Shown: positions 9,001 through 61,519 of the stretch, in pieces | How the letters are laid out: every line of letters starts with the position of its first letter | How positions within the stretch are numbered: position 1 is the first letter of the stretch | From: Aphrocallistes beatrix | Lineage: Eukaryota > Porifera > Hexactinellida > Sceptrulophora > Aphrocallistidae | Length of the DNA: 64,000 nt | NCBI GenBank assembly: GCA_963281255.1 | Contig: OY725493.1 | Coordinates: forward strand, 5,115,857-5,179,856 | Reading direction: 5' to 3' | Position numbers and translations under genes: made by a program | The notes under the pieces: model-generated | Database searches by the model: none | What the model was told of the DNA's origin: nothing | The model's input: only the letters and a program-made list of their open reading frames with translations

Positions 9001-9710
9001 TGAAAACAAATATAACGTTAAGAGATGCAAGAACAACTTCTAAGTCGTTGCTGGTGAGAAGAGCGATTAAGTGCTAGAAATAATGGAAGACTCAATATGC
9101 GTACATCGAAATACTAACTCTCTCGCGTTAGGAAGAGTATCTACCTCCATCGAATAATATATCTGTCTCGCGTTCGCGTTCTCAATCAAGAGAGATGTGA
9201 AAGATAAAATGTGAAGTACCAACTCTCGTTTCTATAAGAATCAGTAAAATTATAATGTTATAATAATCAGGATTACAAGAGTGACATTATTGTACCTCTG
9301 GGTCCGAGATGTCGGGGACAAGGTAGATGTTGTCAGGTTCTTGGAGAGGGTTATCAGGGGGGAGCTGTGTGCACTCAGAGAGAACTTGATCGAATCTGTT
9401 CAGAACATCGATCCAGTGGTAGAGCTCACTCTAAGGAATCGAAAAAATAAATGCATTCATTTGTCTTATATTTTAGGCAAATTATAGTGAGTACCTTCCC
9501 AAAGTTCCAAGTGATGATAAGTTTGAGCTCAGCCAAGAGATCTTGATCAGAACAAGTTTTGAACAGTTGGATAATATCTCTGCAACTCTGAGGCTAGAAG
9601 AGAGGAGACGAGGGAGAAATTTAGATAAGTCGGGAGTGGAAATTGAACAGCCAAAGGTACCTTACCAAGTCATTGAGACTCCTCTTTAGTTTGATTTTAT
9701 CAATTTTCAT
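1..9710 (-). CDS. HUWE1: HUWE1-type HECT E3 ubiquitin ligase, N-terminal part (runs off left edge)
   Basis: Multi-exon gene with short introns. It starts with a 15-codon exon at 9710..9666 ([15 protein letters not shown]), close to the human HUWE1 start, followed by a GTAAGG donor. Later exons match HUWE1 in order: a VHFEF block near 8.7 kb and [10 protein letters not shown] near 7.4 kb (DUF908/DUF913 armadillo-like region), an acidic spacer near 7.2 kb, [11 protein letters not shown] near 4.85 kb, LMRHQPTL near 4.6 kb, a UBA domain ([15 protein letters not shown]) at about 2063-2155, and a WWE domain ([16 protein letters not shown]) at about 990-1240. HUWE1 polyubiquitinates substrates such as MCL1, p53 and histones. 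The catalytic HECT domain would lie beyond position 1, so only roughly the first 40% of the protein is here. Two introns host other genes: tRNA-Ser between exons ending at 987 and starting at 617, and GatB between 6625 and 4910. Exon edges are estimated by eye. Confidence 0.93.
767..848 (-). tRNA. tRNA-Ser, anticodon CGA
   Basis: Read on the minus strand, an 82-nt cloverleaf is complete. The acceptor stem is GCACTGA paired with TCAGTGC, then discriminator G. The anticodon stem is TTGGA/TCCAA around the loop CTCGAAA, giving anticodon CGA. The long class II variable arm typical of serine tRNA is built on GGGC/GCCC. The T stem is GCAGG/CCTGC with a canonical B box GGTTCAAATCC. No intron. Two T runs (TTTT and TTTTT) follow directly as a Pol III terminator. 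It sits inside a HUWE1 intron on the same strand. Confidence 0.96.
4998..6572 (+). CDS. GATB: Mitochondrial glutamyl-tRNA(Gln) amidotransferase subunit B, nested in a HUWE1 intron
   Basis: Single-exon, 524 codons. GatB (PET112) binds Glu-tRNA(Gln) in the GatCAB complex, which converts it to Gln-tRNA(Gln) in mitochondria. The family signature VGLEIHAQ is at residues 32-39, [19 protein letters not shown] follows near residue 100, then [30 protein letters not shown] and [12 protein letters not shown]. The C-terminal part fits the GatB/YqeY tRNA-binding domain and ends in a [15 protein letters not shown] motif. The basic N-terminus before residue 30 looks like a mitochondrial presequence. Translation may start at Met1 or Met5 (5010). 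The whole gene lies in the HUWE1 intron from 6625 to 4910, on the opposite strand. Codon use and flanking host exons argue against bacterial contamination. Confidence 0.95.
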   Translation: MWINMLHLKRIIFSHNCKSRSFSTGIEWTSKVGLEIHAQVSSESKLFSQASTAAGDREPNSSVDLFDIALPGVLPRLNRKCVEYGLLTAMATHSKINPVSYFDRKHYFYPDLPAGYQITQKRVPLAQDGRVEFKLQKSPKGVKTTSTVRIDRIQLEHDSAKILLGKSNETLLDYNRSGVGLMEIVTAPDIKDGEEAAAFINELLLLLKEIRVCESWMEPGSFRVDANVSVHRNNQPSVKVEVKNISSVKFVKKAISYEISRQRKLYEKGEEVVEETRMYDTARSVTHATREKGGSSDYRFIPEPDLPPIWVIDSENEGFHKVAPSELENCIDLAEVRTQLRELPNAKRRRLSETYGLREDQIENLMVSPNMLEYLEKTARLVPNISPIETINWMDRMVGLLANRDLTIKDSVVSPEALHSLMQLLYLDKKITKHTLGTVLKTITEGDDRTPDTIVKEEGLCKMDGREELLEVVRGILSDDPDLVTSLTRNKKKLIQLVNGRVMARTNGRADPVASQQVVSDYFE

Positions 9711-9848
9711 GACCACCCATAAAAGGACAGGAATAATCCGTTCCTCTCACTGTACAAGCTAGCTATTCTTTCATAAAAATTGCGTTAAAGTACCAAGGAT
9801 AAAATAAAAAGTTCACCATGGATGAATAAGGAAATAACTAAGAAACAA

Positions 9849-59702: not shown

Positions 59703-59846
59703 ATTGCATTATAACTATCCTTGATAATGTATGCAATTTTAAAGGGGAATTCGTTGCCAAGTCGTTATAATCTAAATAAAATAGACAATCTACTCATTCT
59801 AATTTACAAATATAAACAAACTCAGACTCGAACAGGCGCCAACCGC

Positions 59847-61519
59847 TCACGCCTCGAAGCTTAGCGTGGTGGACTTGACAGCGTTGTATACCATGGTGTT
59901 GTTGATTGGAACGTATTGGTTCGTAATCAGCTTGATACATTCCTGAGCGGCTAGCCCGCCTACAAACGCGGATATGGTGTGGATCTCACAAGCAGCGTAG
60001 CGACACATCTCGATGACGTAATCCTCCTTGATCTTCTTCCCTGCCAGCCCCCACTCACTCAACAGCTCCCCCACGCAGACTGTCAGCTGCGGAACCTCTG
60101 TCTTCAGGGGGTAGTGCGAGTGGCTCGTACGGAACTTCTCTACAGCTCGAAGCAGCACATACCAAACGAAGTCTGAGTCCTCGTCGTCCAGGGAGAGGTC
60201 GAAATAGTCCCTGTTAAACTGCACAGAGGAGAGCTCCGCCTCCAGGGGCTTCGTCCTGATGAGGCTGAGGAAGAAAGCGTTCTTACAAAACAGAAGAGTG
60301 TCCTCCTCTCCGATGAGATCAGGCGACATTCCTAGAGAGCTGCAGATCTCCTGCACGTGTTTATGCACAAGGGCAGCGTCTCTCCGCGCCTTTTCTCGGT
60401 AGAGGTTCTGAATGTCGATGTACTGCTTGGAGCTGCTCGTCATGTCTGGAATGGTCCCACGCAGTGGGAGGTCCCCGTCCCCTTCAGCTGATATGAATCT
60501 AAACAGAAGCTATAAGAACCGGAAACACGAGAACATGAAGATAGAGTCGACCTAATCACCCACTTCTTGAGAGCGGCAGCCAGCAGCCAGAAAGGACTGG
60601 AGCTGGAGGAGAGTTGGGAGCACAGAGGATCGTCTAGTATCGCCTGGACGCTGGTGGGTATCTTCGTCTCGGTGAGAGCGGTGTTCAGGTTGTTGATTGC
60701 TTCGTCGAAGTTGTCCTCCATCTCGGGTCCGCCCGTCTCTGGGTTCGTTCTAATCCCGGAGCGGATCAGTTCCTTCACTTCCTTCTTCTCCTTGTACTTA
60801 GACGGGAACCGCCCTTCATTCAGTTCTCTCCACTTCTGAAGGAACTTGTAGATCAGGACTAGGAAGGGGACATGCTCGTGCTGCGTCTTGTCCAACTTGT
60901 CTAGGTCCACCGAGTCAGCATGCAGACTCAGCTCGGAGAACGGTTTATCGAACCTGAGGTCTTCCAGTGCATTGTCTGGCTTCGCCTCGGTAATGCAGTG
61001 CTCGGGAGTCGCCACCCGGATGTACCCTATGAACCCGTAGGACCTGAGCAGAATTAGAGGCACCTTCTGACTCCAGAGGATGCGCGAGAGCGGCAGAGTA
61101 GAAGAGTCAGGGAGTTGTGTTGCGATGACAACAGTAAACTGTTTGAAGAATTCAGGCTGCTCATTTATTAGCAGACTAACCTCCGTCGTAACAGCTTCCC
61201 CTGTCACCCCTTCGTTCATTTCTAACAGCAGATCCTTCACTCGGTTTGCACGGAACTCTCCAAGCGATTCATTATCAACGAAGAAGTTCTGGCCTAGGTC
61301 CTTGCCACTTATTTTGTTCGAGTCTACTACCGTTATTTTGCCTATCCCAGGGAGAACTAGGTTTTTGAGGGTTTCGGAACCCACAGCAGATGCGTTGATC
61401 AAACACACGTGAGCAGACTCAAGGGAGGCTTGTCCCTTGTCTCCCCACAGCCTCAACTGCCTGTCGTATCGGGTCGACTTGCTAATTGGCTTTGGTACAA
61501 CAGGAACTTCTCCTGACAT
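59847..61519 (-). CDS. NAE1: NEDD8-activating enzyme E1 regulatory subunit
   Basis: Two exons, 61519-60552 and 60498-59847, giving 539 residues (human 534). With UBA3 it adenylates NEDD8 and starts cullin neddylation. The start YDRQLRLWGDKGQASLESAHVC and NLVLPGIGKITVVDS match the inactive ThiF-type fold. The second exon includes the family phrase LPLRGTIPDM, then IQNLYREKARRDA, and CEIHTISAFVGGLAAQECIKLIT near the C-terminus. Keeping the frame requires the donor AG|GTCGAC, which is unusual; the more normal GTGATT donor 8 nt earlier would break the frame with the visible acceptor. TTTTAG directly precedes the ATG. Confidence 0.95.

Follow-up and report, generated by a model that had tools for sequence, protein, structure and literature searches.

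The spliced leader of glass sponges (Hexactinellida) was reportedly first described by Douris and others in 2010. Hexactinellids are listed among the animals with trans-splicing in PMC7986045. In Aphrocallistes vastus, a leader of ~37 bp was seen in long cDNA reads and was present on 4% of the long reads (PMC10282587). Such a low share of reads with the predicted leader argues against a leader on the majority of mRNAs, although truncation of reads at the 5' end may be another cause of the low value. The genome studied here resembles that of A. vastus in the probable class, in compactness and in having many single-exon and nested genes, whereas the evidence differs, being transcripts in A. vastus and the genomic position of acceptors alone in our case (PMC10282587). 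In the ctenophore Hormiphora californensis, another animal with spliced-leader (SL) trans-splicing and nested genes, the leader was found on 56% of Iso-Seq reads and is encoded, unlike anything seen here, in 718 genomic copies (PMC8527503). In our window, the 3' end of the H. californensis leader with GT directly after it is no commoner than expected, with 5 matches (at most one mismatch) against 5.91. Finally, the SL operons of nematodes and tunicates (PMC7986045) resemble the window in the tight spacing of genes that share a direction and, for some of these, in an acceptor ahead of the downstream ATG; the likeness is one of gene order and acceptor position, not of a joint transcript.

The window is a stretch of 64,000 nucleotides (C7:5115857-5179856) from a compact 100.5-Mb genome in 28 contigs. 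The host was characterized from the mitochondrial contig C28 (17,996 bp), which encodes ATP synthase subunit c (atp9), a gene kept in most sponge mitochondria, and NADH dehydrogenase chain 3 (nad3). The contig contains in-frame TGA codons (=Trp) and AGA codons; one AGA sits at a Ser position that is conserved in subunit c, the case for AGA as Ser resting on this single well-aligned codon. AGR is described as coding for Ser in the three hexactinellids known at the time and not in demosponges (PMC2267718). The AT/GC skews are 0.12/−0.20 in a 3000-base stretch and 0.02/−0.32 in nad3, with signs that fit the hexactinellid pattern (+AT/−GC on the coding strand), while atp9 taken alone has a GC skew of +0.12. 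Mitochondrial atp9, TGA as Trp and AGA at a Ser position are strong, if indirect, indications of a glass sponge. Since trans-splicing is already in print for hexactinellids, the mechanism discussed below is of a known kind, and the present species is a probable addition.

Conserved genes are densely packed in the window, and many of them are single open frames. Most of the frames submitted to Pfam were named, 4 of 20 having no match. The names HUWE1, MTR4, TIA1, ATRIP-like and p190-like are putative assignments taken over from the preliminary description, and the start of HUWE1 was placed by reference to the human protein. The gene of GatB (4974-6569) is nested within the span of HUWE1 on the opposite strand. 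The curated set of 21 starts comprises 20 of the 22 gene entries, for which the Met of the open frame was taken, and HUWE1 with its own ATG. RIF1C was left out because an intron connects it to RIF1N, and for SNX1 the second Met was used (under the first-Met rule the nearest YAG is 15 nt off).

The preliminary description stated that TTAG or another AG lies close to most start codons, and this holds. A YAG trinucleotide is present at most 12 nt upstream in 17 of the 21 curated starts. Dinucleotide shuffles give a mean of 9.15 (sd 2.13), and the observed count was not attained in any of 2000. The same is true for TAG (15 of 21; shuffle mean 6.44, 0/2000), and TTAG is found over the same distance at 9 starts of 21 with 1.54 expected (binomial P 8e-6). 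The starts without a YAG within 12 nt are those of HUWE1 (nearest at 39 nt), GatB (17 nt 5' of the ATG), RIF1 (22) and MYO7 (28). Of the 16 Y-N-N motifs, the one most in excess in genes is YAG (17 vs 7.7); a milder excess is seen for YTA (17 vs 12.3), YAA (14 vs 10.1) and YGG (5 vs 2.5). The finding is thus the excess of YAG and not each individual site, given that chance produces about half of the 17. Starts were also picked by a rule, as the first Met at most 30 residues after the preceding stop in coding-like frames that span 130 residues or more, with internal exons left in. A YAG within 12 nt precedes 26 of these 38 starts (14/21 window frames and 12/17 from other loci), compared to 116 of 298 Met codons inside genes and, for ATGs located 100–700 nt upstream of starts, 72 of 240, a range in which these off-gene ATGs, as well as the control positions used for donors, may fall in neighbouring coding sequence.

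To check the starts, five of them were compared with solved orthologues. NAE1, MYO7, PCBD, ZPR1 and SAS-6 (L022) all align from near their first residues: residue 13 of the NAE1 frame pairs with chain residue 10 of its human orthologue, residue 9 of PCBD pairs with chain residue 7, and the alignment of ZPR1 begins ~20 residues in, at frame residue 24 and chain residue 11. The N terminus of MYO7 agrees with its orthologue, yet the gene has no YAG within 12 nt. Given these alignments, upstream coding exons are unlikely for the five genes. The remaining starts, HUWE1 aside, were placed by open frames.

Acceptor quality was measured with a matrix built from 44 internal introns; predicted introns were kept at 45–120 nt, and 11 of 55 were removed by eye as false or start-proximal. 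These introns have a median length of 65 nt and range from 51 to 108 nt, the range being bounded by the length filter. Internal introns had also been described as ending in TTAG; 33 of the 44 end in TAG, and 11 of these have the TTAG form. The mean best acceptor score at 0–15 nt upstream of the start is 2.21 vs −0.91 (sd 0.69), and 0 of 300 shuffles reach it, for a profile of 31 genes made up of 21 from the window and 10 from other loci, the latter picked after inspecting the upstream letters. In a second start set, 11 of the 25 frames were chosen with the upstream letters known, and one (L010) is an internal exon; the starts picked by rule are free of this kind of selection. At 16–31 nt the score is low (−1.73, reached by 267/300 shuffles, and by 298/300 if the fraction of good sites is counted), as an AG-free stretch would give. 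Within 20 nt, a site that outscores the weakest acceptor of the internal introns is present at just 10 of the 21 starts in the window (P 0.11), and the mean best score has P 0.005. The nearest YAGs are no better than background YAGs in their pyrimidine tract (P 0.20) or AG-free length (P 0.47), and internal introns are better in both. On these two counts, not each near YAG can be regarded as a site in use. A second, weaker acceptor rise is seen at 48–63 nt, ~50 nt above the first peak (12/300 shuffles by mean and 2/300 by fraction, seven bins having been inspected), with examples in TIA1 (62 nt), CCZ1 (61), MTR4 (59), ZPR1 (57) and RIF1 (54).

Individual sites range from strong to weak. The acceptors of the two BAP31 copies, both on the minus strand, score high: the AG of TTTTTTAG (27129..27130) is 8 nt from the ATG of BAP31b (27120; score 5.48), and that of CTCTTAG (26331..26332) is 1 nt from the ATG of BAP31a (26329; score 5.12). 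Strong sites on other contigs precede the genes of SDHA (9 nt), SAS-6 (2 nt) and an NHL-repeat protein (14 nt). The AG adjoins the ATG in two minus-strand genes, NAE1 (TTTTAG, 61520..61521; ATG 61519) and PCBD (GGTTAG, 59175..59176; ATG 59174). Intermediate scores were obtained on the same strand for SNX1 (AG of ACCTCTCAG, 42139..42140, 11 nt from the second Met at 42127; 3.91), MTR4 (AACATAG, 13472..13473, 6 nt from the ATG at 13465; 3.72), orf14.5 (ATCACAG, 15313..15314, 11 nt from the ATG at 15301; 3.47) and YTHDC1 (AATTCAG, 21334..21335, 8 nt from the ATG at 21325; 2.82). The p190-like gene, orf27, which has no Pfam match, and SNX9 have low-scoring sites, also on the minus strand: GATTAG (29541..29542), 1 nt from the ATG at 29539 (2.08), and TGTTAG (17410..17411), 2 nt from the ATG at 17407 (1.76).

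In several genes a better site is located farther upstream. On the minus strand, the AG of CGTTAG before the ATRIP-like gene (39844..39845, 4 nt from the ATG at 39839) scores 1.78 and a site 37 nt upstream scores 5.71; for the TIA1-like gene, the AG of CGTTAG (37341..37342, 11 nt from the ATG at 37329) scores 4.90 and a site 62 nt upstream 6.28; for TMEM106, the weak AG of AAATTAG (23436..23437, 21 nt from the ATG at 23414) scores 1.62 and a site 75 nt upstream 4.84. The AG of ATTACAG before R3HDM (45579..45580, minus strand) is 5 nt from the ATG (45573), the best-scoring AG being 14 nt upstream. On the plus strand, the AG of AATTAG (48705..48706) is 8 nt from the ATG of ZPR1 (48715), with a stronger site 57 nt upstream, and the best acceptor of the DALR-domain gene (46641..46642, score 4.48) is 17 nt from its ATG (46660), a second YAG being at 9 nt. 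HUWE1 and CCZ1 had been singled out as lacking an obvious near site. This stands for HUWE1, in which the nearest possible acceptor, TTGTACAG (9750..9751, minus strand), is 39 nt from the ATG (9710), within the 138-nt spacer between MTR4 and HUWE1, and scores 2.16, below all 44 internal introns (minimum 2.49). CCZ1 does have a weak GGTAG followed by A, and a better acceptor, the AG of TTTATTTAG (25368..25369, minus strand; score 5.12), lies 61 nt from the ATG (25306). The other examples quoted earlier are present, with small misquotations (thus, BAP31a has CTCTTAG followed by G ATG, not CTCTAG followed by A); a 78-residue gene preceded by GATTAG was not recovered among uninterrupted frames of exactly 78 residues with TTAG at most 14 nt upstream.

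The reading that we favour, with a probability of about 0.63, is SL trans-splicing onto many genes with the acceptor 0–15 nt before the ATG. A trans-splice acceptor would be located just ahead of the start codon in many genes, the outron (the 5' part of the primary transcript) would terminate at the acceptor AG, and its place would be taken by a short capped leader donated by an SL RNA that is encoded separately, leaving a very short 5'UTR. This reading starts from what is observed, that is, the acceptor-like signal and its position, the five N termini and the lack of a donor excess at 45–115 nt; from these we infer leader addition and the identity of the receiving genes. If right, the genomic signal by itself would show that leader trans-splicing is widespread in this sponge lineage and acts almost on the start codon. 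It would then bear on the question of an ancient as against a repeated origin of trans-splicing in animals, supply start-codon and 5'UTR rules for the annotation of glass-sponge genomes, and make sponge operons testable.

Cis-spliced 5'UTR introns, each gene having its own upstream non-coding exon and an intron that ends just 5' of the ATG, would yield an identical acceptor signal; if short, such introns should have a donor 45–115 nt upstream. A good donor (one that outscores the lowest tenth of true donors) is found at this distance for 27% of starts (30/32 tested) vs 31% of 1722 control positions, some possibly within neighbouring coding sequence; 89% of internal introns pass the same test, a positive control by construction, since introns were pre-filtered to 45–120 nt. 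Thus there is no donor excess upstream of starts within 45–115 nt, which counts against short 5'UTR introns and for trans-splicing. The spacers of 119–232 nt between some neighbours would also hardly accommodate a promoter together with an exon and an intron. On the other hand, some genes have a reasonable upstream GT (BAP31b, 4.7 at 53 nt; orf14.5, 4.8 at 103 nt), and the gene finder proposed introns longer than 115 nt, including in HUWE1 and MYO7, lengths that fall outside the donor test. On this balance we consider cis-splicing as the general cause unlikely. The earlier proposal that many genes receive a spliced leader is thus supported in part: it agrees with a real acceptor excess, with the absence of excess short-intron donors and with a host that is probably a glass sponge, but the SL RNA gene that it implies was not found in the searches described below.

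It is less probable still that no splice site is involved and that sequence before the ATG is rich in TAG owing to in-frame stops bounding the open frames, start context or composition. Chance alone accounts for ~9 of 21 matches, YTA, YAA and YGG are mildly elevated as well, and the nearest YAGs are at background in the pyrimidine and AG-free measures. However, 4 of the 17 nearest YAGs are in frame with the ATG (NAE1 at 0 nt, PCBD at 0, MTR4 at 6 and the DALR-domain gene at 9), neither shuffles nor internal Met codons match the count, and the intron-derived matrix peaks at 0–15 nt.

Five of the 15 measured spacers of co-directional neighbours are 119–232 nt long: that between MTR4 and HUWE1 (138 nt, minus strand), three in the minus-strand cluster at 25307..27352 (orf27-BAP31b, 232 nt; BAP31b-BAP31a, 119 nt; BAP31a-CCZ1, 210 nt) and that between the DALR-domain gene and ZPR1 (48487..48714, 228 nt, plus strand). 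AATAAA or ATTAAA is present in none of the five; it is also missing from 3 of the 10 longer spacers, and its lack in the short ones therefore says little. Among the downstream genes, BAP31a and BAP31b have strong near acceptors, ZPR1 and CCZ1 have weak near ones and better ones at 57 and 61 nt, and HUWE1 has none. Four of the five spacers fall within a run of 15 consecutive minus-strand genes from HUWE1 to R3HDM (983-45573, the nested GatB aside), for which our own arithmetic gives 6e-5 if strands are random; the run is possibly a directional cluster or a series of operons and is treated as a lead, not as evidence. That orf27-BAP31b-BAP31a-CCZ1, MTR4-HUWE1 and the DALR-domain gene with ZPR1 are glass-sponge operons, co-transcribed and split by leader addition near the ATG, with the leader on most genes, appears rather doubtful. 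Operons are given as unreported in hexactinellids in PMC7986045, and our literature search found no title or abstract opening that reports them in glass sponges.

The genome was searched for an SL RNA gene with an snRNA-like promoter of one type, a few Sm forms and exact patterns, and no candidate was accepted; since the search was narrow, this outcome is weak evidence. snRNA genes are present (three copies of U1, four of U2 and one of U5). By eye, all eight contain RMCCAYW ~55 nt upstream, followed in seven by TTTNA after 9–11 nt. When sampled loci were scanned for the promoter element plus an Sm-like site, nine lax matches were obtained; two are U1 genes, and the other seven, one of them in a 5S-gene flank, were judged by eye not to be SL-like. 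Over the genome, patterns that include an Sm-like site produced 14 (control 10), 56 (control 28) and 54 matches (control 16; U5 included), and the pattern with a GGTA donor gave 60 vs 72 in the control. From reading the letters, much of the excess in the 56- and 54-match scans comes from repeat families, one of them palindromic. The 1.5-kb flanks of four 5S genes contained no snRNA according to Rfam, just miRNA matches under the gathering scores. No SL-like family was seen by eye among repeats shared within 342,714 sampled bases, in a scan that required 45 nt at 88% identity and that a leader-only repeat could escape.

Eight candidate stretches were checked for further copies. One of them resembled an SL RNA: its GTAAGTT donor lies in a predicted hairpin, though one no more stable than shuffles, and it has two relatives. 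It was rejected as a dispersed repeat, since the model derived from it matched three loci of a random sample and the homology continues past both ends of the RNA. With at most two mismatches, the end of its exon occurs twice in the genome, each time at a copy of the gene. Another stretch was rejected as a many-copy element with inverted pairs. The dispersed repeat is found at L022 2323-2409, L018 2319-2401 and L025 269-350; it is a diverged copy at another locus that has the look of an SL RNA, with a donor in a predicted hairpin and a promoter-like element. A third of the eight stretches has three copies in G000 (C2:327687-327769, C2:280013-280087 and C3:3421752-3421836), the first of which combines an snRNA-like promoter element with an Sm-like site. 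A palindromic repeat of >400 bp, read in seven copies (L046-L051 and L053), is probably a mobile element. L015 (1-574 and 7324-7461) contains tRNA-like repeated units with GGTTCGAATCCC, perhaps a tRNA-derived repeat.
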